NCBI GenBank assembly: GCA_014859605.1
Contig: JACUTW010000018.1
Coordinates: 1-38,260, forward strand
DNA length: 38,260 nt
Origin: Desulfuromonadales bacterium
GTDB taxonomy: Bacteria; Desulfobacterota; Desulfuromonadia; Desulfuromonadales; UBA2197
Direction of reading: 5' to 3'
How positions within the stretch are numbered: the first letter of the stretch is position 1; each line of letters begins with the position of its first letter. The notes below the pieces were generated by a model, which was given only the letters and a program-made list of their open reading frames with translations, did no database searches and was not told where the DNA came from. Of this stretch, positions 21,597 to 35,090 are shown one piece after another. Both the position numbers and the translations under genes were made by a program.

Positions 21597-24059
21597 ATGC
21601 GAGATTTCATGAGCAAAGATGATCAAGGACTGAATAGACCGAGACGTGGATCTTTCCTGGTGTGCCTGGCCTTGCTGTTGATGCTTGTCGGACTGCCCGC
21701 CGGCGTCTCTTTCGCTGCCTCCAACATTGCGCAGGAGCAGGCCGTTTCTCTGGCGCGCGCCGGGGAGTTCAACGAGGCACTGGCGATTCTCGGCGATCTC
21801 CATCAGCAGTCTCCCGACAACCAGGCAGTCGCTTATGATTACCTGTCCGTGTTGGGTTGGGCAGGCCGTGATGGGGAGGTAGTGACTTTCGCCGAGGGTC
21901 TGACGCTCGATTTGGCGCCGGCTTATGTGCTGGAGGCCGTCGGCAAAGCCCTGCGCAACACGCAGCGATTTAAGGAAGCGACCGCCCTGTATGGCAGGGC
22001 GTTGGCGCGCTTCCCTGCCCATCGCGATTTCATCGAGGGGCATGTTTATGCTCTCGGCGAAGCGGGCGACTTCGCGGCGGCTGATGAGCGCATCGCGCGG
22101 CTGCGCGCGCAATATCCCCGTGAACTCTGGCCGCTGCGCCTTGATGCCTATGTGGCGGCTCTGCGTGGTGATGACCTGGCTGTGCTCGACCGTAACCAGC
22201 GTATTCTGACGCTGGCCCCTGAGGACTCCGCTGCCTTGCGCGGGCGCATCCTCGCCCTTGAAGCCCTGGGCGCCACCCATCGCGCGCAAGTGTATGCAGA
22301 GCAACACCCCCATCTCTTGAGTCGCGAAGAACGGTTGCGTTTGCAAACCGGAAGCGCCGCCCAACAGGTACGATGGGGGAGCCTGGAACCCGAGTCAGAA
22401 GAGATGCGCTTTGCCGAAACCGATCGGGCCCTGGCGCTGATTGAAAAGAATCTGGCTGGCCTCGATGCCAAGGATCCAGTCGAGCGCTCCTTTGTTTTTC
22501 AGGCGCGCTTTGATCGAGTGGTGGCGCTGCGCGACCGGGTGCGTATGGCCGAGGCTATCGCTGAATACGAAAGCCTGGCCGACGAAGGTATTTCTCCTCC
22601 GCCCTATGCACTGCAGGCCGCCGCCGAGGCCTATCTGTACCTGCAAAAACCTGAGGTGGCGCGCGATCTCTACCTGCGGGTGCTCGCCGAAGAGCCTCAG
22701 AACTTTGAAGCCGGCCTTGGTCTCTTCTACGCCTACATCGAAACGGAGGATTTCCCCAGAGCCTACAACCTGATCGATCGAATGCAGGCCAAACAGCCGG
22801 TGTGGCGCCAAGGGCGCGGCGTCGGCGCTAATCGCGAACGGCTCGACGTGGATGTCTTCGCCGGTTTAGCGCGGGTGTTAGCTGATGATTTGACCGAAGG
22901 GCAGCGACGTTTTAAAACCATGCACGCCACCGCGCCGCACAACCCCGATCTGGTGCGCGAGTTAGCCAATATTTACGGCGCACGAGGCTGGCCGCGCCTG
23001 GCCCAACAGACCTACGCCGATGGGCTCGTCATCGCGCCCGGCCATCCCGGTCTACAAATGGGACATGCCGCCACGCGTCTCGATCTGCGCGAATACGACG
23101 AAGCCCAAAGCGAAATCGCCGATCTTTACCGTCGCTTTCCCGAAAACCGTCAGGTACAGCGACTACAGCTTCTGTGGGATATCCACGAACTGCGCGAACT
23201 GCGCGCCGAAGCCGCCTACGCTGACAGCAGCGGTGCCGAACCTTCCAGCCAGGAACTGCGCCTGAGCAGCACTCTGTTCTCCTCGCCCTTTCTCACCCAC
23301 TACCGAGCCTTCATTTCCGGCTTCTGGAGTCGGGCCGATTTCCCCGAAGGCCGGGGCATCTACCAGCGTTACGGGGGTGGTTTGGAATATCGCGGTCGCG
23401 ACCTGATCGCCAGTCTGGCGGCCAGCGCCAATCATAGTGACGGCAGCGATCTTGGTCTGGCCTTCTCCGGAACTTGGTATCGCGACGATCACTGGTCATT
23501 TCCCTTTGCCCTTGAAATGTTCAGCGCCGATACGCCGCTGCGCGCCCTGCGCAATGGCGTCGACGCTGATGCCGCGCGGCTGGGGGTTGATTATCGCCAA
23601 AGCGAACTGCGCAGCATGGGCTTGGGCGGGCAAGCCATGGATTTCAGCGACGGCAACCAGACTGGCCGCGTGAGCGCCTACTGGCGTGAGCGCCTGGTGA
23701 CCAGGCCCCATTACAAGCTCGATGGCGTGGTGGATCTCTACGCGTCAACCAATCGGCGCGACGATGTTCCCTATTTCAGCCCCAAGCAGGATTTTTCCGC
23801 CGAACTGACCCTCGACAACGACTGGCTGCTATATCGGCGCTACAGTCGCACCTTCGGTCATCGCCTGGCGCTGTCGGGTGGCGGTTACTGGCAGAAGGGT
23901 TTTGGCGCCAATCCGGTAGCGGCCATACTTTACGAACACAACTGGCAAGCGGATTATCGCTTCAGTCTCAGCTACGGCGCGGTGCTGAGCCGCCGCGTCT
24001 ATGACGGCGACGGCGAAACGGGTGTCGAGTATTATCTGCGCCTGGGTTGGAGATTCTGA
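21597..24059 (+). CDS. pgaA: Poly-beta-1,6-N-acetylglucosamine export porin PgaA
   Basis: 820 aa, the expected length. A signal peptide (about residues 17-41, FLVCLALLLMLVGLPAGVSFAA) is followed by a long helical repeat region of TPR type (about 45-530; e.g. EQAVSLARAGEFNEALAILG, RDLYLRVLAEEPQNFEAGLG). The C-terminal part (about 550-820) is an aromatic, alternating outer-membrane beta-barrel ending YYLRLGWRF with the terminal Phe typical of BAM substrates. PgaA carries partially deacetylated PNAG across the outer membrane. pgaB, pgaC and pgaD follow with overlapping stops and starts. ATG 21597 or the in-frame ATG 21609 may be used. Confidence 0.93.
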   Translation: MRDFMSKDDQGLNRPRRGSFLVCLALLLMLVGLPAGVSFAASNIAQEQAVSLARAGEFNEALAILGDLHQQSPDNQAVAYDYLSVLGWAGRDGEVVTFAEGLTLDLAPAYVLEAVGKALRNTQRFKEATALYGRALARFPAHRDFIEGHVYALGEAGDFAAADERIARLRAQYPRELWPLRLDAYVAALRGDDLAVLDRNQRILTLAPEDSAALRGRILALEALGATHRAQVYAEQHPHLLSREERLRLQTGSAAQQVRWGSLEPESEEMRFAETDRALALIEKNLAGLDAKDPVERSFVFQARFDRVVALRDRVRMAEAIAEYESLADEGISPPPYALQAAAEAYLYLQKPEVARDLYLRVLAEEPQNFEAGLGLFYAYIETEDFPRAYNLIDRMQAKQPVWRQGRGVGANRERLDVDVFAGLARVLADDLTEGQRRFKTMHATAPHNPDLVRELANIYGARGWPRLAQQTYADGLVIAPGHPGLQMGHAATRLDLREYDEAQSEIADLYRRFPENRQVQRLQLLWDIHELRELRAEAAYADSSGAEPSSQELRLSSTLFSSPFLTHYRAFISGFWSRADFPEGRGIYQRYGGGLEYRGRDLIASLAASANHSDGSDLGLAFSGTWYRDDHWSFPFALEMFSADTPLRALRNGVDADAARLGVDYRQSELRSMGLGGQAMDFSDGNQTGRVSAYWRERLVTRPHYKLDGVVDLYASTNRRDDVPYFSPKQDFSAELTLDNDWLLYRRYSRTFGHRLALSGGGYWQKGFGANPVAAILYEHNWQADYRFSLSYGAVLSRRVYDGDGETGVEYYLRLGWRF

Positions 24060-25993
24060 TGATGCGGATTAAAATTGTTATCTTGTTGCTCCTACTGCTG
24101 AGCGCACTTTCCCCTACCCCGGCCCGCGCCTTCGTTGCCTTATGCTATCACGATGTGCAGGACGTAGTGGACGATCCCGACGGCATGGCGGTATCGCGTG
24201 ATAACCTCGTTGCCCATTTCAGCTGGCTGCGCGAGAACGGCTATACGCCGGTGAGCATCGATGCTTTGCTGGCGGCGCAGCGTGGCGAGCGGCCCTTGCC
24301 GGACAAAGCGGTGCTGCTGACTTTTGATGACGGCTATACGAGTTTTTATACCAAGGTCCTTCCCTTGCTCAAAGCCTTCAATTACCCGGCCGTTCTGGCC
24401 CTGGTCGGCAGCTGGCTCGAAGTCCCGGCGACGGGGCAGGTCGCCTACGGTGACTCTCTGGTGCCACGCGAGCGCTTCATGAACTGGGAACAGATTCGCG
24501 AGGTCGCCGCCTCGGGCCTGGTGGAAATCAGTTCACACAGCTACGACCTGCACCGTGGTATTCCGGCCAATCCCCAGGGCAACGTTCAGCCGGCCATGAC
24601 CACGCGGCGCTATGACGCCGCCAGCGGTCGTTATGAAATGGACGAAGTCTACTTAAAGCGTCTGCGCGCTGATTTAGCACGGAACTCCGCCTTGCTCCAG
24701 AAGCAGCTTGGCAATAAGCCGCGCGTCATGGTCTGGCCTTACGGTGAATACAATCGCCACGCGCAGGAATTGGCTATGGAAGCCGGTATGCCCATCACCC
24801 TCACCCTGGATGTGGGCAAGAACAATCCTCAAGAGCTCGGCGCAGTGCGTCGGGTGCTGATTCTTGACAACCCGCCGCTCGCCGACTTTGTCTGGCAGAT
24901 GCGTAATCCCCAGTGGCAAAGGCCGCGGCCGATCCGGGTCGTGCATGTCGATCTTGACTATGTGTACGACTCCGATCCCTCGCAGCAAGAAACCAACCTT
25001 GGCCTGCTGCTTGACCGTATTCAGAAACTCGGCGTCAACACTGTCTATCTACAGGCCTTTGCCGATCCTGACGGCGACGGAGTGGCTGATGCCCTCTATT
25101 TCCCCAACCGTCATCTCCCCCTGCGCGCCGATCTCTTCAACCGCGTGGCCTGGCAGTTGCGGGTGCGTACCGGGGTGCAGGTTTATGCCTGGATGCCGGT
25201 TCTAGCCTTCACCCTCGGCGATGAAGCCGATCAGGTGCTGGCCTGGGCTGCGGACAACAGGGTGGCGCCCGATCCTCACCAGTATCGCCGCCTGTCGCCT
25301 TTTTCACCGCGCGCCAGACAATTGGCCTCAGAGCTTTACGAAGATCTGGCCAAGCATGCCGCCTTTGCCGGGGTGCTGTTTCACGACGATGCATTGCTCT
25401 CTGATTTCGAGGATGCAAACCCTGCCGCCCTGACCGCTTATCAGGCGGCCGGACTGCCCGGCGACATCGGCGCCATCCGTACCGATGAGGCGCACAAACG
25501 CGTCTGGACGCGTTTGAAAAGTGAGGCGTTGCATGATTTTACCGCCCATCTCGCCGAGCGGGTGCGCACCTGGCGGCCCGCCGTCAAGACGGCGCGAAAT
25601 CTCTATGCCCGTCCGGTGCTGGAAAGGGACAGCGAGGCCTGGTTCGCCCAGAGCCTGCCGCGTTTTCTTGAGAAGTATGATTACACCGCCGTCATGGCCA
25701 TGCCCTACATGGAAGGAGCTGAAGATCCCGATATCTGGCTGCGCACCATCGTCCAGAGCGTCGCCGAGGTCCCCGGCGGCTTGGACAAGACGGTCTTTGA
25801 GCTGCAAAGCGTCGACTGGCGCAAGAATAACGAAGCCATCCCCGGCAGCTTTCTGGCGCGGCAGATGCGTCTGCTGGCTCGCGAGGGCGCCCGACATTAC
25901 GGTTATTATCCCGACAATTTCTTCCACAACCAGCCGCGGGCGGAGGATTTGATGCCGATCATGTCCTTGCGCACCTACCCCTATCTGCCATGA
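24059..25993 (+). CDS. pgaB: PNAG N-deacetylase / glycoside hydrolase PgaB
   Basis: 644 aa from ATG 24059, which shares one base with the pgaA stop (TGATG). Signal peptide MMRIKIVILLLLLLSALSPT plus PARA, with no lipobox Cys, so unlike E. coli PgaB it may be a soluble periplasmic protein. The deacetylase domain (about 25-280) has YHDV (H31, D32), TFDDGY (D90, D91) and SSHSYDLH (H160, H165) as metal and catalytic residues. The C-terminal domain (about 290-644) has VDLDYVYDSDPSQQETN, TVYLQAFADPDGDGVADA and FHDDALLSDFED, as in PgaB hydrolase domains. It deacetylates PNAG so that PgaA can export it. Confidence 0.95.
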   Translation: MMRIKIVILLLLLLSALSPTPARAFVALCYHDVQDVVDDPDGMAVSRDNLVAHFSWLRENGYTPVSIDALLAAQRGERPLPDKAVLLTFDDGYTSFYTKVLPLLKAFNYPAVLALVGSWLEVPATGQVAYGDSLVPRERFMNWEQIREVAASGLVEISSHSYDLHRGIPANPQGNVQPAMTTRRYDAASGRYEMDEVYLKRLRADLARNSALLQKQLGNKPRVMVWPYGEYNRHAQELAMEAGMPITLTLDVGKNNPQELGAVRRVLILDNPPLADFVWQMRNPQWQRPRPIRVVHVDLDYVYDSDPSQQETNLGLLLDRIQKLGVNTVYLQAFADPDGDGVADALYFPNRHLPLRADLFNRVAWQLRVRTGVQVYAWMPVLAFTLGDEADQVLAWAADNRVAPDPHQYRRLSPFSPRARQLASELYEDLAKHAAFAGVLFHDDALLSDFEDANPAALTAYQAAGLPGDIGAIRTDEAHKRVWTRLKSEALHDFTAHLAERVRTWRPAVKTARNLYARPVLERDSEAWFAQSLPRFLEKYDYTAVMAMPYMEGAEDPDIWLRTIVQSVAEVPGGLDKTVFELQSVDWRKNNEAIPGSFLARQMRLLAREGARHYGYYPDNFFHNQPRAEDLMPIMSLRTYPYLP

Positions 25994-27276
25994 TGCTCAC
26001 CTATCTCGAACAGGTCCGAGGCGCGCTACTGCCCTTTTTATTTTTCTATCCGCTGTTCATGGCCTATTTTTGGATGATCGGCGCGATTTATTACTATTGG
26101 CGCCACGAGCGCAACCAGGGCGGCTACCAGAACGAACCCAAACTACGCGAATATCCCGGCGTGTCTCTAGTGGTTCCCTGCCACAACGAGGGCGACAACG
26201 TGCGCGAAACGATTGCCGCCCTCCTCAACCAGACCTATCCCGACTTCGACATCATCGCCGTCAATGACGGCAGCAATGACGACACGGGGTCAATCCTCGA
26301 CGAGTTGGCCGAGCAGCATCCGCGCCTGCGCGTGCTGCACTTCACCCAGAATCAGGGCAAGGCCATGGGGCTGCGCATGGCGGCCCTGTCGTCACCCCAC
26401 GAGTTTTTAATCTGCATCGACGGTGACGCCTTGCTCGATCCTCACGCCACCACCTGGATCATGAGTCACTTCGTCAACGGCGCGCGGGTCGGCGCAGTGA
26501 CCGGCAATCCGCGCATCCGCAACCGCTCGACTTTGCTCGGCAAGGTGCAGGTCGGCGAATTTTCGGCGATCATCGGCATGATCAAGCGCGCCCAGCGCAT
26601 CTACGGACGCGTCTTTACTGTTTCGGGAGTGGTATCTGGTTTTCGTAAATCGGCACTGCACGAGGTGGGCTTCTGGAGCCTCGACAAGGTGACCGAGGAT
26701 ATCGACATCAGCTGGAAACTTCAGCTCAATTACCAGGACATCCGCTTTGAGCCCAACGCCCTGTGCTGGATTCTCATGCCCGAGACACTGCGCGGTCTGT
26801 GGAAGCAGCGTCTGCGTTGGGCGCAGGGCGGCTACGAGGTGCTGTTCGCCAATCTCGGCGGCCTGTTCAACTGGAAAAAGCGGCGCATGTGGCCGGTGGT
26901 TCTCGAATTCGCCGTCAGTGTCATCTGGAGCTACAGCATGCTGGCAGTGGCGGGGCTCTGGATCCTGAGTTTTTTCATGCCCCTGCCCGAATATCTGGAA
27001 CTGCCTTCCATGTTGCCGCATTGGCCCGGGGTGGTGCTTGGACTGACCTGTCTGCTGCAATTCGCGGTGAGCTTGGGTATTGATTCACGCTACGAGCAGG
27101 GATTGGGACGCAGCTATTACTGGATGATCTGGTATCCCCTGGCTTTCTGGTTGATCAATCTGTTCGCCTCCATCGTCGGGCTGCCCAAAGCCCTGTTCAA
27201 ACCCCGTGGACGCCGCGCCACCTGGGTCAGTCCCGATCGCGGCGTCGCTCAAAGCGAAGAAGGAGTCGCCCCATGA
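25990..27276 (+). CDS. pgaC: Poly-N-acetylglucosamine synthase PgaC (GT2)
   Basis: 428 aa; ATG 25990 overlaps the pgaB stop by 4 nt (ATGA). A membrane segment (about 13-36) precedes the GT2 domain: SLVVPCHNEGDNV, AVNDGSNDDTG (D93), CIDGDALLD (DGD 144-146), VTEDIDISWK with the catalytic-base Asp, and QRLRWAQGG (QxxRW). Three or more C-terminal membrane segments follow (AVSVIWSYSMLAVAGLWILS; GVVLGLTCLLQFAVSLG; PLAFWLINLFASIVGLP). It polymerises UDP-GlcNAc and needs PgaD. In E. coli PgaCD is activated by c-di-GMP; no c-di-GMP enzyme is encoded nearby. Confidence 0.96.
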   Translation: MMLTYLEQVRGALLPFLFFYPLFMAYFWMIGAIYYYWRHERNQGGYQNEPKLREYPGVSLVVPCHNEGDNVRETIAALLNQTYPDFDIIAVNDGSNDDTGSILDELAEQHPRLRVLHFTQNQGKAMGLRMAALSSPHEFLICIDGDALLDPHATTWIMSHFVNGARVGAVTGNPRIRNRSTLLGKVQVGEFSAIIGMIKRAQRIYGRVFTVSGVVSGFRKSALHEVGFWSLDKVTEDIDISWKLQLNYQDIRFEPNALCWILMPETLRGLWKQRLRWAQGGYEVLFANLGGLFNWKKRRMWPVVLEFAVSVIWSYSMLAVAGLWILSFFMPLPEYLELPSMLPHWPGVVLGLTCLLQFAVSLGIDSRYEQGLGRSYYWMIWYPLAFWLINLFASIVGLPKALFKPRGRRATWVSPDRGVAQSEEGVAP

Positions 27277-27713
27277 AGTCGCCCATCATCGAAAACCCCA
27301 AGGGCGCCTCGCGATTGCAGCGCTATAGTCAGGGAGTGCTGACCGGCATATTCTGGGTGCTTCTCGGATTGCTGCTGTGGCCGCTATTCACTTTCGGCAC
27401 CTGGCTGCAAGGTAGTCATCCCGACTTCCTGACGATATTACGCTTCGATGGTCTCGGCAGTTTATTTCGCGTGCCCTTTGTGTACTTTTTAGTGGTAGCG
27501 CTCATCGGGGTGGTATTGATCGGGTGGTCCAGCTACAATCTGCTGCGCTTTCGCCATAACGAGCGGCGTACACGGCAGCCCGATGCCTTGACGCCGGCGC
27601 AACTGGCGGGATTTTTCGGCGTGGAGGAGGAGCAGGTGCGGCACTGGCAGACCAGTCGCCGCATCGTCATGAGCCATGATGAGCAGGGTCGGCCGAGGCC
27701 GGAAGAGGGCTGA
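27273..27713 (+). CDS. pgaD: PNAG biosynthesis accessory protein PgaD
   Basis: 146 aa; the start overlaps the pgaC stop by 4 nt. Two membrane segments (about 22-48, VLTGIFWVLLGLLLWPLFTF; about 68-92, VPFVYFLVVALIGVVLIGW) are followed by a cytoplasmic tail with LTPAQLAGFFGVEEEQVRHW and IVMSHDEQG, the usual PgaD layout. It stabilises and activates PgaC and helps form the c-di-GMP-binding site in E. coli. It completes a four-gene pgaABCD operon. A 52-nt gap with no convincing terminator separates it from the convergent rlmD. Confidence 0.9.
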   Translation: MKSPIIENPKGASRLQRYSQGVLTGIFWVLLGLLLWPLFTFGTWLQGSHPDFLTILRFDGLGSLFRVPFVYFLVVALIGVVLIGWSSYNLLRFRHNERRTRQPDALTPAQLAGFFGVEEEQVRHWQTSRRIVMSHDEQGRPRPEEG

Positions 27714-27765: not shown

Positions 27766-29052
27766 TCAGTTGCGGGCGAGGACGACCAAACTTTCGATGT
27801 GATGGGTCTGTGGGAAGAAGTCGAAGGGTTGCGCTGAGTCGCAGTGATAACCGTGCTGCAGGAGGGTCTTGAGATCGCGAGCCTGGGTGGCTGGGTCGCA
27901 GGAGATGTAGAGGATGCGCGGCGGAGCAAGGTCGATGAGTTCGCGGCAGACATCGCTTGCACCCTCCCGCGGCGGATCGAGGACAACGAGATCGAAGGGT
28001 AGATTCTGACTGTAAGCGCGCAGGGCGCCAGCCGCCGGACGGGCATAAAAGCGGGCATTTTTCAGGCCGTTTTGCCGGGCGTTGCTTTTGGCCTGAGCGA
28101 TCGACGGTGCATAATTCTCGACCCCGACGACTTCGGCACAGCGCCGCGCCAGAGGGAGTGAGAAATTTCCCATACCACAATAAAGATCGAGAACCCGCTC
28201 TGTCCCTTGTAACTCTGCAGCGCTGAGCACAGCGTTGAGCAGAGCACGATTCTGCTCCAGATTGATCTGGGAAAATCCTCCCGCCTTGTACGCCAACGCC
28301 AATGGCGGCGTGTCGCAGCTGATGACCAGATCCTCCTCACCGCAAATGTGTTGTATCCCTCCCTGACGATCCCCCTGCACAAAGAGCGCAAAATCCTCCT
28401 GGAGAGCCAGGGGGCGCAGCAACTTTGCGACTGCAGCGGCGGCGTTGTTGCGGGCATGGATGGCCAGCCGGACCTTGCCGCGATCGTCGATACCAACGTC
28501 GATCTGGGGGATGTGGGCCGCGACAGCGGTTCCGTCAATTTCCGCCTGCAGTAAGGGAATCAAGCGATTCACCGCGGCCGGCAGCAAGGGGCAGCTGTCG
28601 ATTTCTGCGACGCTGTGACTTCCTCTGCGGAAAAATCCGAGAGCGAAACCTTTACTGCTCTGGCAACATTTGATCTGGGCGCGACTGCGATAGGCGTACG
28701 CTTGCGGGGCTGTGACAATCGACAAGATCTTCTCTGCGGGTATTCCGGCCTGGCGCTGTAAAAGATCGCGATAGATCGTTTCCTTCCACTTTGCCTGCTC
28801 GCGATAAGGCAGAAATTGCCACTGACAACCGCCGCAGACCCCGAAAACCGGACAGGGCGGAGTGATCCGCTCTGCGGCCGGCTGGAGGATTTCGACCAAC
28901 TCGGCTTCGGCCCAGCGCCCCTTGTCGCGGACAATGCGACAGCGAATCTGATCGCCGGGCGCGGTCAGGGGGACAAAGATCGCTTTGCCGTCGAGGCGGC
29001 CGATACCGTTGCCGCCAAAGACGAGGCTCTCAATGGTCAATTCGACTATCAA
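27766..29052 (-). CDS. rlmD: 23S rRNA (uracil-C5)-methyltransferase RlmD (RumA family)
   Basis: 428 aa. An N-terminal TRAM domain (about 1-56) is followed by four Cys for a [4Fe-4S] cluster, C67, C73, C76 (CPVFGVCGGC) and C154, in the spacing of E. coli RumA. The SAM-binding motif is VLDLYCGMGNFSLPLA (about 287-302), then LDPPREG (359-365), the nucleophile C385 in YISCDPATQARDL, and the base glutamate in HHIESL near the end. It methylates U1939-type uridine of 23S rRNA; another uridine in 23S rRNA or tRNA is possible for this family. It overlaps the upstream 145-aa gene by 4 nt and is last in the arsR-led run. Confidence 0.93.
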   Translation of the reverse strand: MIVELTIESLVFGGNGIGRLDGKAIFVPLTAPGDQIRCRIVRDKGRWAEAELVEILQPAAERITPPCPVFGVCGGCQWQFLPYREQAKWKETIYRDLLQRQAGIPAEKILSIVTAPQAYAYRSRAQIKCCQSSKGFALGFFRRGSHSVAEIDSCPLLPAAVNRLIPLLQAEIDGTAVAAHIPQIDVGIDDRGKVRLAIHARNNAAAAVAKLLRPLALQEDFALFVQGDRQGGIQHICGEEDLVISCDTPPLALAYKAGGFSQINLEQNRALLNAVLSAAELQGTERVLDLYCGMGNFSLPLARRCAEVVGVENYAPSIAQAKSNARQNGLKNARFYARPAAGALRAYSQNLPFDLVVLDPPREGASDVCRELIDLAPPRILYISCDPATQARDLKTLLQHGYHCDSAQPFDFFPQTHHIESLVVLARN

Positions 29053-29486
29053 CGCATCCTCAGAATCGTCGACGCCGACGGTTTGTTGGCTAATTCAGCA
29101 CGAAGGAGGCGCTGGGGGACTTCCGGACGACTGAGATAACTCTCTACTTCGGTTTGATAACTGGCGACCAGTTCTGCCCGCAGCGCATCGACACGACTGC
29201 CCGGAACCCCCATCCGCTCCAGAACCTTGTTGGTCGTCAGTTTTGCGCCAAAACGCTTCTTAGCGGCGATCAGGAGTTCGGGGTCGGTCAAGAGTTCGTT
29301 GCTGAGGTTCAATTCGATCTCAACGACAATGCGCAGGCGGTGATAATCCCCGAAATAGCGATTACTTTGATCAAAAAAGCGCAGGTACAAACCGTTCGTC
29401 AGTCTCTCTTCGGCAAAAGGAGGAGCCGCAACAGACGTGGCAGTTGATACGGTGGGTTGTTGTGGATTAACGGGAGGGAGGAGCAT
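29049..29486 (-). CDS. Conserved-looking protein of unknown function (145 aa)
   Basis: I do not recognise the family. It is overlapped on both sides, by 1 nt with trmJ upstream (TAATG) and by 4 nt with rlmD downstream, which strongly supports it as coding. The product is soluble: a Pro/Thr/Ala-rich start, then RLTNGLYLRFFDQSNRYFGD and HRLRIVVEIELNLSNELLTD, which look beta-stranded. A helical C-terminal half follows (AAKKRFGAKLTTNKVLERMG, VDALRAELVASYQTEVESYL). No catalytic motif or metal site is visible. Its fixed place between two RNA methyltransferase genes hints at RNA- or translation-related work, but that rests on context only. Confidence 0.75.
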   Translation of the reverse strand: MLLPPVNPQQPTVSTATSVAAPPFAEERLTNGLYLRFFDQSNRYFGDYHRLRIVVEIELNLSNELLTDPELLIAAKKRFGAKLTTNKVLERMGVPGSRVDALRAELVASYQTEVESYLSRPEVPQRLLRAELANKPSASTILRMR

Positions 29487-30259
29487 TATTTCTTCTCTTT
29501 CTCTTTACGGCGCTCGTTCTCGATCCAGTCGAGGCGGCTCCAGAGTCCCTGCAAAATACGGACATCCCGTTCATTGAGACCGGCGCGGCTGAAGATGCGG
29601 CGGAAGGTGCGGAGGATATGCTCGGGATTCTGCGGGTCAAGGTAACCGATCTCGAGGAGGCTCTGGCGCATGTGACTGTACATCGCCTCAATGGCGGCAG
29701 AAGGGGCACTTTTGCGGCGCCGTTCCCGCACTTTCCCGGCGGCTTCCGCGCCGGCCTGGCCGACTTCATAAAGACAGACGGCGACCGCCTGGGCGAGATT
29801 CATCGACGGCAGTTCATCGCTGGTGGGAATGGTGAGAAAACGCTGACAGAGATCGAGTTCGCTGGTGTGGAGGCCGCGATCTTCGCGACCGAAGACCAGA
29901 GCGGTCGAAGCCGATGCTGCCGCCGTCAGGATCTCCCGTCCGGCATCGTTGGGGTGAATAAAATCCTCGCGGTATTTTCCGAAGCGGCGGGTGGTACCGA
30001 TGGCGAGGCTGCAGCCGGCCAAGGCATCAGGGAGGGAGAGATAGACCCGCGCTTGCTCCAGAAGGGGGGCAGCCCGCACCGCCATGCGCCGCGCTTCTTC
30101 GCCGAGGTGGTCGGTCTGGGGATTGACCAGGCGGAGATCAGACAGGCCGAAGTTCATCATCACCCGACAGACCGAACCGATATTGAGAGGACCTTGCGGT
30201 TCGATGAGAATGACGGCAATATTGGTTAATGGCGACGTTGGCGCGGGGGGGAGAGACAT
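29486..30259 (-). CDS. trmJ: tRNA (cytidine/uridine-2'-O)-methyltransferase TrmJ (SPOUT, TrmH family)
   Basis: 257 aa. The SPOUT core shows the three family motifs: ILIEPQGPLNIGSVCRVMMN (motif 1), ALVFGREDRGLHTSEL (motif 2) and IPTSDELPSMNLAQAVAVCL (motif 3, with the trefoil knot and SAM site). Its length and extra C-terminal helical part (about 170-257) match TrmJ rather than TrmH or TrmL. TrmJ makes the 2'-O-methyl group at position 32 of several tRNAs. AAGGA lies about 9 nt before its ATG. It follows rsmE after 12 nt and overlaps the next gene by 1 nt. Confidence 0.88.
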   Translation of the reverse strand: MSLPPAPTSPLTNIAVILIEPQGPLNIGSVCRVMMNFGLSDLRLVNPQTDHLGEEARRMAVRAAPLLEQARVYLSLPDALAGCSLAIGTTRRFGKYREDFIHPNDAGREILTAAASASTALVFGREDRGLHTSELDLCQRFLTIPTSDELPSMNLAQAVAVCLYEVGQAGAEAAGKVRERRRKSAPSAAIEAMYSHMRQSLLEIGYLDPQNPEHILRTFRRIFSRAGLNERDVRILQGLWSRLDWIENERRKEKEKK

Positions 30260-30271
30260 TGATAAGTTTCC

Positions 30272-31039
30272 TTAGTTCAAATCGCCGAGGGCGTACTGGA
30301 TGACGGTCGCGGCGCTGATCGCTGCAGTTTCGGTGCGAAGGATGCGCGGCCCGAGGGAGACCGGGAGAAATCCGTTGCGACGAGCAGTTGTGACTTCTTC
30401 AGTAGCAAAACCCCCTTCAGGGCCGATCAGCAACGCGACCGGTCGGCTCGAATGCTCGGCAACAACGCTTTTGAGCGAAGTGACCCCCTCCCCTTCATAT
30501 AACATGAGGCGAAGAGCGGTCTCCGGGGCATCGGCAAAGACGGCAGCGAAATCGAGACAGGGGCTGAGTTCGGGGATGATCGCCCGCCGGCATTGTACCG
30601 CGGCGCGGCGGAGCACTTCCGGCCAGCGGTGGGATTTTGGCTGTTTGGCATCACGCGCCGCCAGCGTCGAAGAGTGTTTTGAGACAAAAGGGACGATGCG
30701 GGTCACCCCGAGTTCGGTGAGTTTTTCGAGGATGAGTTCGAAACGCTCTTTTTCCGGCAGAGCTTGATAAACAGTCAGGCTTAAAGAACTTTCGAGGGGC
30801 CGTAAGGTGCGTTGAAAAGGAATCAGGATCCCGCCGTCTTCGTTTAGCTCCGCAAGTCGCCCCCGCCACATTCCCTCGTCGGCAGCGATCACAGTCACAA
30901 TCATGCCGCAGCGCGCCCGCCAGTGTTTTAAAGCGGTAACGACATCGAAAGAAAACGGGTATGGAACCCCGGCCTGAAGAGTTCCGGCGAGCCGGACCAG
31001 ACTCCCGGCGCCGCCGCTACTCCCGGAGACTGGTGGCAA
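30272..31039 (-). CDS. rsmE: 16S rRNA (uracil1498-N3)-methyltransferase RsmE
   Basis: 255 aa from TTG 31039. This start is chosen because AGGAGG (complement of 31046-31051) sits 6 nt upstream; an open frame continues to 31129 but deep into holC. The C-terminal SPOUT domain has LPEKERFELILEKLTELGVT, LLIGPEGGFATEEV and LGPRILRTETAAISA, the RsmE knot motifs. The N-terminal PUA-like part is divergent: the usual RRFF start is missing and MPPVSGSSGGAGSLVRL replaces it. It methylates N3 of U1498 in the 16S decoding region. It overlaps the end of holC by 23 nt, indicating coupled translation. Confidence 0.9.
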   Translation of the reverse strand: MPPVSGSSGGAGSLVRLAGTLQAGVPYPFSFDVVTALKHWRARCGMIVTVIAADEGMWRGRLAELNEDGGILIPFQRTLRPLESSLSLTVYQALPEKERFELILEKLTELGVTRIVPFVSKHSSTLAARDAKQPKSHRWPEVLRRAAVQCRRAIIPELSPCLDFAAVFADAPETALRLMLYEGEGVTSLKSVVAEHSSRPVALLIGPEGGFATEEVTTARRNGFLPVSLGPRILRTETAAISAATVIQYALGDLN

Positions 31040-31442
31040 AACCGGCCTCCTGATAAGCGCGGTAGCGCTGGCGACTTGCCGCGGTGAGATCATTGTCGTA
31101 GGTTTCGGCAAAGTCGATGACGGTGTCAAACTGGCGAAGGAAGTTCAGGGTTGCCGGCCGCCCGAGGATCACGACCCGACTGGCGTTGGCGTTGCGCTCG
31201 GCCGAAGCAATGACAATCGGTTCGCCGAGACACTCGACAGCACCGTTATCAAAGGCATGCGGCAGGAAAGAATCGCGTTTCCAGGTCCACAAAAAATGAT
31301 CGAGTTTGATCCCCTGATCGTCATCCGCAACGAGAATCAGCACCCTTTGTCCGGCATTATAGAATTCAGCTGTCAACTCAAAGAGATGACGTGCTTTTTC
31401 CGGTTTACGTAAACGAATGAATTCAGCGCGACGGAGTGTCAT
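31017..31442 (-). CDS. holC: DNA polymerase III chi subunit
   Basis: 141 aa. The HolC pattern is clear: EFIRLRKPEKARHLFELTAE, a strand-helix with GQRVLILVADDDQGIKLDHF, then LWTWKRDSFLPHAFDNGA and the late GEPIVIASAERN. Chi links the clamp loader to single-strand DNA binding protein during lagging-strand synthesis. AGGTGA lies 6 nt before ATG 31442. It starts 24 nt after the DUF3108 gene and overlaps rsmE. No holD (psi) gene is in the window. In proteobacteria holC is often next to pepA and valS; its location in an arsR-led operon is unusual. Confidence 0.9.
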   Translation of the reverse strand: MTLRRAEFIRLRKPEKARHLFELTAEFYNAGQRVLILVADDDQGIKLDHFLWTWKRDSFLPHAFDNGAVECLGEPIVIASAERNANASRVVILGRPATLNFLRQFDTVIDFAETYDNDLTAASRQRYRAYQEAGFATSLRE

Positions 31443-31466
31443 CGTTGCTCACCTGAAGATGGAAGT

Positions 31467-32315
31467 TCATCGCCGTAACTCTCCGCGTACATCCCCTATT
31501 CCTAAAACATTCTCAACAATGACCCGTTGCGGCAAAAACTTTTCATCCAGCAGTGCGTATACAGCGCCGCCACCGGTATCCAGGATTTCTGTCGGGAGGA
31601 TAATTTTGAGGAGGGTTCCGCCCCCTTTTTTCAGAAAAGAGGTCTTAGGCCAGTCGGCAGCACCGAGAACCTCAATAGTGATATTGCGTTCTCCTTTGTC
31701 CGTGAAGGTCAAGATCTCTTTGCGGACTCCGGGTTCGAGTGGCCCATCTGCTCCGATAATAAAATTAAATCCAGCAGTTAGAAAGTCAACCGGGCAAGTC
31801 TCACAGACAATCTTGCGCGGATTGTCCTCACCTGTTTGACCGGCTTTGTGGCGGGTGACGAAAATCGTCCGGGTCGCTGGTTCAAACTTGTAGCTTTTAG
31901 TCTGTTCAATGACCTCGCCCGCTCTTTTTTTGTAAATCATTGAACGGTATTCAAGGGCGACAAATCGTCCTTGCGGGGTCATCTCCATCAAGCTTTCATA
32001 ATGTTGTTTCCGATCACCTGTCAACCACGCCGCCACACCAAGGGTTTTGGCATCGAGAATCGCCCGGTAACGATTGGGAGCAGAAGGATCACGACGAAAA
32101 CTTAACTGTCCGACCGCGAGACTGTCAAACCAGAGAAAAGAGAGGTTGTAGTGACGATCAACGTCGATCAGGGACTGTAACGACGCTTTTTTTGCAACAA
32201 CCGGGAGGGATTCAGCGGCATCAACGGGGCCAGGAGTAGAAAGAAAGAGTCCTGTCACCAACAGGAGAGAAAGGCTGCAGCGATAGAAAAAAAGGATTAA
32301 ATTCATCGCGGGCAT
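31467..32315 (-). CDS. Secreted DUF3108-family protein
   Basis: 282 aa. An N-terminal signal segment (MNLILFFYRCSLSLLLVTGL then FLSTPGPVDAAE) sends it to the periplasm. The mature part is beta-rich, with LSFLWFDSLAVGQLSFRR, YRAILDAKTLGVAAWLTGDR, VALEYRSMIYKKRAGEVIEQ and a CETCP motif (two Cys in CxxC) before VDFLTAGFNF. This matches DUF3108 proteins, beta-barrel-like envelope proteins of unknown function. The CxxC could be a disulfide or a metal site. Its ATG overlaps the arsR stop by 1 nt; an ATG at 32306 is an alternative. It is the second gene of the arsR-led operon. Confidence 0.8.
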   Translation of the reverse strand: MPAMNLILFFYRCSLSLLLVTGLFLSTPGPVDAAESLPVVAKKASLQSLIDVDRHYNLSFLWFDSLAVGQLSFRRDPSAPNRYRAILDAKTLGVAAWLTGDRKQHYESLMEMTPQGRFVALEYRSMIYKKRAGEVIEQTKSYKFEPATRTIFVTRHKAGQTGEDNPRKIVCETCPVDFLTAGFNFIIGADGPLEPGVRKEILTFTDKGERNITIEVLGAADWPKTSFLKKGGGTLLKIILPTEILDTGGGAVYALLDEKFLPQRVIVENVLGIGDVRGELRR

Positions 32316-32620
32316 TAGCTGCAGCGCTGCTGTGGGGCGAAAAGCGCTGCGATAATTTCCCCGGCTTCAGGAGAGATGACGCTGTAGAAGACTTCCGTCC
32401 CGTCGCGGCGACCGGCAATAATCTGTTTGCTCTTGAGCAGGGAGAGGTGCTGAGAGACTGTCGCCTGTGGCAATTCCAGACATTCCCAGATCTTTTTGAC
32501 ATTGCAGCTTTGGGAAAGGAGTCCGGCAACTATCTTCAGGCGAATGGGGTGCCCGAGAACTTTAAGGATTTCGGCTTGACGTTCAAGGTTGGCGTGCTTG
32601 TCAAATTCCTGTTGTGCCAT
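32315..32620 (-). CDS. ArsR/SmtB-family transcriptional repressor
   Basis: 101 aa from the ATG at 32620, placed 9 nt after AGGAG (complement of 32630-32634); an ATG at 32629 abuts that site and is less likely. The winged-helix core reads AEILKVLGHPIRLKIVAGLL, then recognition helix LELPQATVSQHLSLLKSKQI and wing GRRDGTEVFYSV. The ELCVC metal motif of ArsR is absent. Cys occur at 39, 47 and 100. One in the helix-2 region and one near the C-terminus recall the paired cysteines of persulfide- or redox-sensing members (SqrR/BigR type), but that is inference. It probably represses its own operon at 32658-32689. Confidence 0.88.
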   Translation of the reverse strand: MAQQEFDKHANLERQAEILKVLGHPIRLKIVAGLLSQSCNVKKIWECLELPQATVSQHLSLLKSKQIIAGRRDGTEVFYSVISPEAGEIIAALFAPQQRCS

Positions 32621-32657
32621 AGTTGTCATCTCCTGGAGACAAATAAAATCAGCGGCT

Positions 32658-32689
32658 CAAACCTTATTCTCATATATGGATAAGGTTTG
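32658..32689. promoter_or_regulatory. Inverted-repeat operator upstream of arsR
   Basis: CAAACCTTAT (32658-32667) and ATAAGGTTTG (32680-32689) are a perfect 10-bp inverted repeat with a 12-nt spacer, 38 nt upstream of the arsR start. Size and position fit an ArsR/SmtB-family operator. The right arm overlaps the predicted -10, so binding would block transcription. Confidence 0.75.
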
Positions 32690-32705
32690 GGGAAAATAAA
32701 GTCAA
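32677..32705 (-). promoter_or_regulatory. Promoter of the arsR-led operon
   Basis: On the minus strand TTGACT (32700-32705) is followed after 17 nt by TATCCA (32677-32682). The -35 is good and the -10 weak, as often seen at regulated promoters. The operator arms cover the -10 and the start region. Confidence 0.6.
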
Positions 32706-32712
32706 GTTTGAT

Positions 32713-33900
32713 CTAGAAAAGCGGCAGAGAAGTTCCGTTGCGTCGCGGCAAAGAGAAGACTTTAGCGATGGTGGCGGCAAGATCGGCAAAGGTTGCCCTG
32801 GTCCCGAGATCCTGACCCGCAGTCATCCCCGGTTGCCAGACAAGGAGCGGCACATATTCACGGCTATGATCGCTGCCGGCAGTGGTCGGGTCGCACCCGT
32901 GATCGGCAGTGATCACAAGGAGATCCCCTGGAGCCAAAGCCGCCATCAGGGGTTGTAAATCCGCATCAAAACGCTCTAAAGCCCGGGCAAAGCCGGCAAC
33001 GTCAAGACGATGCCCGTACTCCATGTCAAAGTCGACCAGATTAGCGAAGATCATCCCCCGGCCGACGCGCTCGAGGGCTGCAACGGTCTGTTCCATCCCT
33101 TCTTGATTATTCCGTGTCGCAACTGATGTTGAAATCCCTCGGCCGGCAAAAAGATCGCTGATCTTGCCGATAGCATGAACTGGTAAGTGCCGTTCGATGA
33201 GATCATCCAGAATCGTCGGAGAGGTCGGCGGCATGGAAAAATCATGGCGGTGCCGGGTTCGTTTGAAATTATCCGCAGCTGTGCCGATAAAGGGGCGGGC
33301 AATAACGCGAGCAATACGATAGGGATCGAGAATCTTTCGGGTGAGTTGACAGATTTCGTAAAGGCGTTCCGGGGCAATAACCTCTTCGTGGGCGGCAATC
33401 TGAAAGACAGAATCGACACTGGTATAGATAATCGGGCGACCGCTGTGCAGGTGCTCTTCACCGAAGCGACGCAACACATCGGTGCCGCTCGCCGCAACGT
33501 TCCCCAGGGGTGCCAAACCGGTTTGTTGTGTAAATGCGTCGATTATTTCTTCCGGAAAACCCTGCGGAAAGGTGGCAAATGGCTGCAACTGGGTGACGCC
33601 GCAGATTTCCCAATGGCCGGTGGTAGAATCCTTGCCGACAGCAGAAGATTGCATGCGCCCGTAATGCGCCCGGGCCTGAGTCGCGGGCGGGATGCCGGGG
33701 AGAGCCAGGATGTTGCCGAGACCGAGTTGCTGCAGGTTGGGTAGCTGCAAACCGCCTTCTCGCTGGGCAATATGCAACAAAGTGTTAGCGTCGCTATCAC
33801 CATAACTGTCGGCATCCGGCAGGGCGCCAATACCGACGCCATCGAGGACAATCAGGATGACGCGTTGAATGGGCTCAGACTGAGAGGGCATGAAGGGCAT
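32713..33900 (-). CDS. deoB: Phosphopentomutase
   Basis: 395 aa from the ATG at 33900, which overlaps the argJ stop by 1 nt (TAATG); the ATG at 33891 is also possible. It is an alkaline-phosphatase-superfamily enzyme: RVILIVLDGVGIGALPDADS carries the first metal ligand, SYGDSDANTLLHIA is the DeoB signature, and DSTTGHWEICG holds the phospho-acceptor Thr. IYTSVDSVFQIAAHEE and ITADHGCDPTTAGSDHSRE near the end supply further Mn ligands. It interconverts ribose- or deoxyribose-1- and 5-phosphates in nucleoside salvage. It is last in the secA-argJ-deoB run. Confidence 0.95.
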   Translation of the reverse strand: MPFMPSQSEPIQRVILIVLDGVGIGALPDADSYGDSDANTLLHIAQREGGLQLPNLQQLGLGNILALPGIPPATQARAHYGRMQSSAVGKDSTTGHWEICGVTQLQPFATFPQGFPEEIIDAFTQQTGLAPLGNVAASGTDVLRRFGEEHLHSGRPIIYTSVDSVFQIAAHEEVIAPERLYEICQLTRKILDPYRIARVIARPFIGTAADNFKRTRHRHDFSMPPTSPTILDDLIERHLPVHAIGKISDLFAGRGISTSVATRNNQEGMEQTVAALERVGRGMIFANLVDFDMEYGHRLDVAGFARALERFDADLQPLMAALAPGDLLVITADHGCDPTTAGSDHSREYVPLLVWQPGMTAGQDLGTRATFADLAATIAKVFSLPRRNGTSLPLF

Positions 33901-35090
33901 TAACTGCGATAGGAGGCATTGCACTTGACGTAGTCATAGGTCAAGTCCGAGGTGTAATAGCGACCGAGTCCGCTGCCGAGATGGAGATCGATGGTCACCT
34001 TGAATTCGGGCTGCTTCAGCACCGCCGTGGCTTTGGCCTCCAGTTCAGCGCCGGTACTGATGCCGTCAAGCACAACCGGGATTTCGCCAAAAGAGATGCC
34101 GACCCGCTCCGGATCGATCTCTGCCCCGGAGTAACCGACCGCGGCAATGATCCGTCCCCAGTTGGCGTCCTCGCCAAAAAAAGCAGTCTTGACCAGATTG
34201 GAGGTGGCGACACTCAGGGCCGCCTGCCGCGCCTGCGCATCATCCAGCGCGCCGCGGACTTCAATCTCGACCACCTTGGTCGCCCCTTCCCCATCCTTGA
34301 CGATGAGTTTGGCGAGTTGCAAAAGGACGTTAGCGAGTTTCTCGGCAAAAGCCTCCCCGTCCGGGGTATTGGGTTGAATCTCTGCGCCAACTGAAGCGCC
34401 GTTAGCGAGGAGCAGAACCATATCATTGGTCGAGGTATCGCGATCGACCGTAATGCTGTTAAAGGAAGCGTCAACCGCACGGCGCAGCGCCGCATCAAGG
34501 AGATCTGGCGCCACCTGCGCATCGGTCATGACAAAAGCGAGCATGGTCGCCATGTTCGGGTGGATCATCCCCGCCCCTTTGGCAATGGCCACGATATTGT
34601 AGGGATTGCCGTAGCTGCTCCCCGAGGCGGTGGCGATCTTGGGATAAGCATCCGTGGTGCGGATCGCCTCGGCAACGTCAGCGCAGCGATCTTCTGCCAG
34701 AGAAGCGACCAATTGCGGCAGGAAGTTTTCAAAGGGGGCCAGGGGCAAAAGCTGTCCGATAACGCCGGTCGAAGCCAGTGCGAGAGTTTCGACCGGAATC
34801 TGCAGTTGGGCAACTGCAAGCTCTGCGGTCTGCAGGGCAACAGCGTGGCCGGCGGCACCGGTGCAGGCATTAGCATTACCGCTGTTGACCAGAACCGCCT
34901 GACAGTGACCACCAGCAAGACGGTCGCGGGTGATAACAATCGGCGCGGCCACAACCTTGTTGGTGGTATAGACCGCAGCACAACGTGCCGGGGTCGCGGA
35001 TACGATCAAACCCATGTCGAGCTTGCCGCTTTTTTTGATGCCGGCGGCGCAGGCGGCAAAACTAAAGCCTTTTATCTTAAGATTCTGCAT
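33900..35090 (-). CDS. argJ: Glutamate N-acetyltransferase / amino-acid acetyltransferase ArgJ
   Basis: 396 aa precursor. ArgJ cleaves itself into two chains at A181/T182 in HPNMATMLAF, leaving Thr182 as the nucleophile. Oxyanion residues are in ASTGVIG (107-112), and KGAGMI (171-176) supports the active site. The C-terminal chain contains SFNSITVDRDTSTNDM, and the protein ends DLTYDYVKCNASYRS as usual. It transfers the acetyl group from N-acetylornithine to glutamate in the cyclic arginine pathway, and may also use acetyl-CoA. It starts 35 nt after secA with no separate promoter evident. Confidence 0.96.
   Translation of the reverse strand: MQNLKIKGFSFAACAAGIKKSGKLDMGLIVSATPARCAAVYTTNKVVAAPIVITRDRLAGGHCQAVLVNSGNANACTGAAGHAVALQTAELAVAQLQIPVETLALASTGVIGQLLPLAPFENFLPQLVASLAEDRCADVAEAIRTTDAYPKIATASGSSYGNPYNIVAIAKGAGMIHPNMATMLAFVMTDAQVAPDLLDAALRRAVDASFNSITVDRDTSTNDMVLLLANGASVGAEIQPNTPDGEAFAEKLANVLLQLAKLIVKDGEGATKVVEIEVRGALDDAQARQAALSVATSNLVKTAFFGEDANWGRIIAAVGYSGAEIDPERVGISFGEIPVVLDGISTGAELEAKATAVLKQPEFKVTIDLHLGSGLGRYYTSDLTYDYVKCNASYRS

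Follow-up and report, generated by a model that had tools for sequence, protein, structure and literature searches.

A predicted ArsR-type autorepressor at the head of a run of RNA methyltransferase genes in one genus of the Desulfuromonadales

ArsR-family repressors are known mostly from metal, sulfur and redox detoxification, and they usually control transport or detoxification genes. In the window, by which we mean the whole 38,260-nucleotide stretch of DNA analyzed here (from a genome of 2.76 Mb in 153 contigs), a gene for such a repressor stands at the head of a run that includes three RNA methyltransferase genes, an arrangement that a sequence-only reading had taken as a possible link from stress to translation. 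Does the repressor control these enzymes, or is it simply their neighbor? If it does control ribosome-modifying enzymes, it would connect a chemical signal to the chemistry of the ribosome simply and directly.

On the minus strand, argJ and deoB are followed, after 83 nt, by arsR, a DUF3108-like gene, holC, rsmE, trmJ, an orphan gene and rlmD, joined by overlaps or by gaps of 12 or 24 nt (Table 1). The coordinates of these seven genes, reported earlier as a run with overlaps or gaps of no more than 24 nt, are confirmed, and Pfam and NCBIfam profiles back the assignments of arsR, HolC, RsmE, TrmJ and RlmD. The DUF3108 assignment falls under the family cut-off (PF11306, 23.1 bits against a Pfam cut-off of 26); the structure model of the protein is confident (pLDDT 90.9) and beta-rich, and its comparison with the PDB returned no strong match of known function, the DUF1089 protein 2h1t being among the best. 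The orphan protein has no family match in Pfam or NCBIfam, its PDB profile search gave weak, implausible matches, and a structure model made without an alignment was poor. It is nevertheless kept in place across the order and carries the motifs NRYFGDYHR and ERMGV. The same genome holds a second TrmJ-family gene, 41% identical to the first (G000:C75:9032-9754). Convergent with the end of rlmD, a plus-strand set of the poly-N-acetylglucosamine synthesis type occupies 24047-27713 (PgaB-like deacetylase, PgaC-like glycosyltransferase and PgaD, the family test having been run on PgaD alone).

Table 1 Features of the arsR locus and of a related locus (L067).
Feature	Coordinates	Strand	Remarks
argJ	33900..35090	-	PF01960, 473 bits; upstream and codirectional
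deoB	32713..33924	-	TIGR01696, 441 bits; upstream and codirectional, possible source of readthrough
-35 box TTGACT of the arsR promoter	32700..32705	-	Read from the sequence
Predicted operator CCTTATCCATATATGAGAATAAGG	32662..32685	-	Cognate of TAATATYCATATATTCAA, found upstream of arsR in the order
arsR	32315..32629	-	104-aa ArsR/SmtB-type winged-helix protein with C42 and C50; PF01022, NF033788
DUF3108-like gene	31467..32315	-	TAATG overlap with arsR; product probably exported, beta-rich
holC, DNA polymerase III chi subunit	31017..31442	-	PF04364, 98 bits; 24-nt gap after the DUF3108-like gene
rsmE, 16S rRNA U1498 methyltransferase	30272..31129	-	PF04452, 160 bits; TIGR00046, 129 bits, above cut-off; coordinates are those of the longest ORF, which overlaps holC, and the true start is uncertain
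trmJ, tRNA 2'-O-methyltransferase family	29486..30259	-	TIGR00050, 206 bits, above cut-off; 12-nt gap to rsmE
Orphan gene	29049..29486	-	Between trmJ and rlmD; 1-nt overlap with trmJ
rlmD, 23S rRNA m5U1939 methyltransferase	27766..29052	-	TIGR00479, 340 bits against a cut-off of 184; 4-nt overlap with the orphan gene
RlmI-like gene in L067	+299..+1474 relative to arsR		

The ArsR protein scores above the curated cut-offs of PF01022 (HTH_5; 32 against 22 bits) and NF033788 (HTH_metalloreg; 76 against 55 bits) and above that of no named subfamily, PagR and BigR being the nearest. The relatives in which this ArsR recurs are Desulfuromonadales: 124 of the 136 genomes of the order have a match at E <= 1e-10, usually as a single copy, and the orthologs are about 65-77% identical in most genomes of the order. 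Across the class, the count is 226 of 244 genomes at E <= 1e-30. Every one of the 121 aligned proteins has C42 and C50. The CNVKKIWEC segment is likewise invariant, apart from its second lysine (96%), and so is the LPQATVSQHL segment, apart from one V-to-A change; a cysteine lies among the last 14 residues in 88 of the 121. The protein is a predicted ArsR/SmtB-type repressor, uncharacterised so far and typical of the class to which the Desulfuromonadales belong.

Upstream of arsR, most relatives have CTTGAC followed, after about 17 nt, by TAATAT continuing into YCATATATTCAA, and the operator consensus of the order, TAATATYCATATATTCAA, overlaps arsR's own promoter. In the window's genus the operator is changed to CCTTATCCATATATNANAATAAGG, and the -35 region CTTGACTTTATTT is invariant across the three genus genomes; position 32705, where the sequence-only reading had ended the locus, is exactly the first base of the TTGACT box. 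Compared with the order-wide promoter, that of the genus has 3 nt fewer from the -35 box to the operator and differs in its spacer; its -10, TATCCA at 17 nt, is a weak one. In G131, another genome of the genus, the sequence between deoB and arsR is about 80% identical, against about 53% at the third codon positions of the two genes, and is therefore under constraint.

With up to three mismatches allowed, the genus variant of the operator matches exactly once per genome in the three genomes of the genus, at arsR only, and it was not found in the sister genus. Order-wide, 51 operator sites have no more than one mismatch: 46 are at an arsR promoter, four are elsewhere and a contig end cuts the last. 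A wide ArsR regulon was rejected, as the two of the four non-arsR sites that were viewed (L189 and L210) had no convincing target. A perfect arsR-type operator core is found away from arsR in one genome (L249, 2666-2693, G009:C193), where the stretch around arsR itself scores no operator site. Because the genus variant occurs once per genome, and here only, the run is ArsR's one predictable target.

The natural reading of the operator's position is that ArsR acts as a local autorepressor, and from precedent in the family we infer that it may combine autorepression with a sensing site. It would bind the site that overlaps its own promoter and so repress its own transcription unit, as the position and conservation of the operator suggest; with a single operator per genome in the genus, its reach would be local. 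A signal received at the invariant C42/C50 region, perhaps thiol chemistry (oxidation or persulfidation) or a soft metal, would then cost the protein its DNA binding and lift repression.

How far down the run this control would extend depends on the transcription unit. The earlier proposal of a single promoter/operator for all seven genes holds in so far as a conserved promoter/operator does precede arsR, but it is weakened by the poor -10 and by the codirectional argJ and deoB directly upstream. With no terminator called in the gap from deoB to arsR, transcription from upstream can read through into all of these genes. A scan for sigma-70-like consensus sites, of a kind that would miss promoters for other sigma factors inside the DUF3108-like gene, returned no minus-strand site near the holC start. 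Within trmJ there is a single promoter-like site on the minus strand (29640-29613), and in G131, the one genome compared, its consensus -10 is replaced by CATCCT. Because the genes are tightly spaced and no promoter was called close to the start of holC, we favor a predicted single transcription unit.

The full order from arsR to rlmD is confined to the window's genus, where it occurs in three of three genomes: it is complete in the window's own genome (G000) and in G131, and in G130 it breaks off inside holC, where the contig stops, and rsmE to rlmD are found on a second contig. The expectation that the order recurs in close relatives is thus borne out within the genus and rejected beyond it, as other relatives keep arsR and the holC block apart. 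In most sampled relatives holC, rsmE, trmJ, the orphan gene and rlmD form a conserved block, with the same genes in the same order as in the window but without an upstream arsR or DUF3108 gene; 2-oxoacid:ferredoxin oxidoreductase-like genes or a phosphoglycerate-mutase-like gene often precede it. The relatives' arsR lies divergent from ppaC (57 of the 75 loci with full flanks), DUF3108 (60 of 75, its commonest neighbor) and yrbG (40 of 75), and 23 of the 75 have rlmI beside it. Since the holC cluster has no arsR in front of it elsewhere in the order, control by ArsR would have been gained recently and in this genus alone. In the genus, which lacks rlmI, arsR and DUF3108 now separate deoB from the old cluster. 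On whether arsR and DUF3108 arrived by transfer, the DUF3108 tree, in which the G131 sequence was mistranslated, is uninformative, showing a long branch without resolved placement.

The relatives also provide a second association with an RNA methyltransferase. In 14 families, 34 genomes have a gene for an RlmI-like 23S rRNA methyltransferase, and comparison of coordinates places it directly downstream of the orthologous arsR in 34 of 34; members of this group are 60-100% identical to the query, the next group being 43% or less. At 31 loci, which include a few identical contigs from two collections, the two genes overlap by 4 nt in 27 cases and by 1 nt in three, with a single 5-nt gap. The ortholog was never found away from arsR in the order, the pairing extends to at least eight genomes elsewhere in the class, and the window's genus has no ortholog, keeping a 36% paralog alone. 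The exact target of the RlmI-like enzyme is left putative because the protein does not exceed the NCBIfam RlmI equivalog cut-off. Taken together, the regulator is linked to RNA methyltransferases twice, to an RlmI-like enzyme in one setting and to RsmE, TrmJ and RlmD in the other. Function could account for this, or the inertia of a conserved block plus chance, the latter being possible because RNA methyltransferase genes are common. The literature searched contained no ArsR-RlmI or ArsR-RsmE link, and a paper listed for Geobacter ArsR refers to no more than regulator mutations that it does not specify. The general arsR-rlmI pairing is a stronger reason for interest than the arrangement in the genus, and its strictness, together with the near-exclusive operator, makes it easily testable in culturable relatives such as Geothermobacter.

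We consider it somewhat more probable than the contrary that ArsR is a local autorepressor and that, in this genus, the holC-rlmD block has joined as the distal part of its autoregulated unit; the spacing of at most 24 nt suggests that the cluster is probably now such a distal part. A rival account that deserves real weight, although we do not think it probable, is that the coupling is incidental, with holC to rlmD expressed mainly through argJ-deoB readthrough or an internal promoter, and ArsR mattering for arsR and DUF3108 only. The open path from argJ and deoB, the fact that elsewhere holC-rlmD serves as a housekeeping block with no arsR, and the frequency of DUF3108 beside arsR all agree with it, but the scan offers no site near holC, the site inside trmJ loses its consensus -10 in G131, and the arsR promoter/operator is constrained in the genus. 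It is also possible that the ancestral role of ArsR concerned its divergent neighbors (the Na/Ca antiporter YrbG, DUF3108 and the Mn-dependent pyrophosphatase PpaC), for instance in sensing cations, and that RNA methyltransferases were passengers both times. The counts of ppaC, DUF3108 and yrbG against those of rlmI, and the transport and detoxification targets usual in the family, speak for this account; we regard it as unlikely, however, as each upstream region has one operator, which lies over the arsR -10 and not near the divergent start (a second operator for the divergent genes was found in just 1 of 118 loci), and as the RlmI ortholog stays with arsR, usually in a 4-nt overlap.

Two further readings concern the motif and the signal. 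The conserved motif is AT-rich and overlaps the -10 box, and it might be an extended promoter with no repressor site; we find this distinctly improbable, since the near-identical sequence continues for about 12 nt beyond the -10 and is found almost exclusively at arsR promoters. SahR, an ArsR-family regulator reported from Desulfuromonadales (PMC4239095), raises the idea of a SahR-type protein that senses S-adenosylhomocysteine made by methyltransferases, and SAM-dependent methyltransferases do lie downstream here. SahR, however, acts on SAM-cycle genes, at several promoters that carry a 20-bp palindrome (PMC4239095), whereas the window's ArsR has one operator per genus genome, at arsR; SahR identity was rejected on this regulon, and we give the idea hardly any credence.

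With local autorepression as the preferred reading, the stress-to-translation link is plausible from sequence and survives in part: a conserved operator heads the run, but the arrangement is specific to the genus, and readthrough from argJ-deoB or syntenic inertia could explain much of what is seen. A broader association of ArsR with RNA methyltransferases gains from the pairing in 14 families. A more ambitious proposal, that the class-wide and nearly universal subfamily with the invariant CNVKKIWEC-type site is a dedicated local switch from a chemical signal to rRNA and tRNA methylation, acting ancestrally on an RlmI-like enzyme and, after the loss of rlmI in the genus, on RsmE, TrmJ and RlmD, we regard as doubtful.

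Among known ArsR-type regulators, the closest solved relative is PagR of Bacillus anthracis (PDB 2zkz, 3e-16), which is also the top NCBIfam match and has a similar LPQ(S/A)TVSQHL recognition-helix segment. PagR identity is ruled out, as the protein misses the equivalog cut-off (78.5 against 170 bits); its gene context also differs from that of PagR, in which no cysteine aligns with C42 or C50. The persulfide- or redox-responsive regulators BigR, SqrR and HlyU share the common ArsR fold and make thiol-based sensing plausible. That subgroup is marked by a pair of cysteines in alpha-2 and alpha-5, and membership is ruled out by the score (BigR, 59 bits against a cut-off of 155) and by the replacement of the alpha-2 cysteine, as the cysteine of LMLVC in BigR aligns with an alanine. 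Metal-sensing ArsR proteins are marked by an alpha-3 CxC site (ELCVCDL), and a sensor of this type is likewise ruled out, the segment in the window reading SCNVKKIWEC, with no CxC. RexT of Nostoc senses H2O2 through alpha-3 cysteines, the vicinal C40-C41 (PMC8960804), whereas C42 and C50 lie eight residues apart and no thioredoxin neighbor was seen. Both proteins nevertheless carry cysteines in the alpha-3 region, and RexT provides a precedent for redox sensing there.
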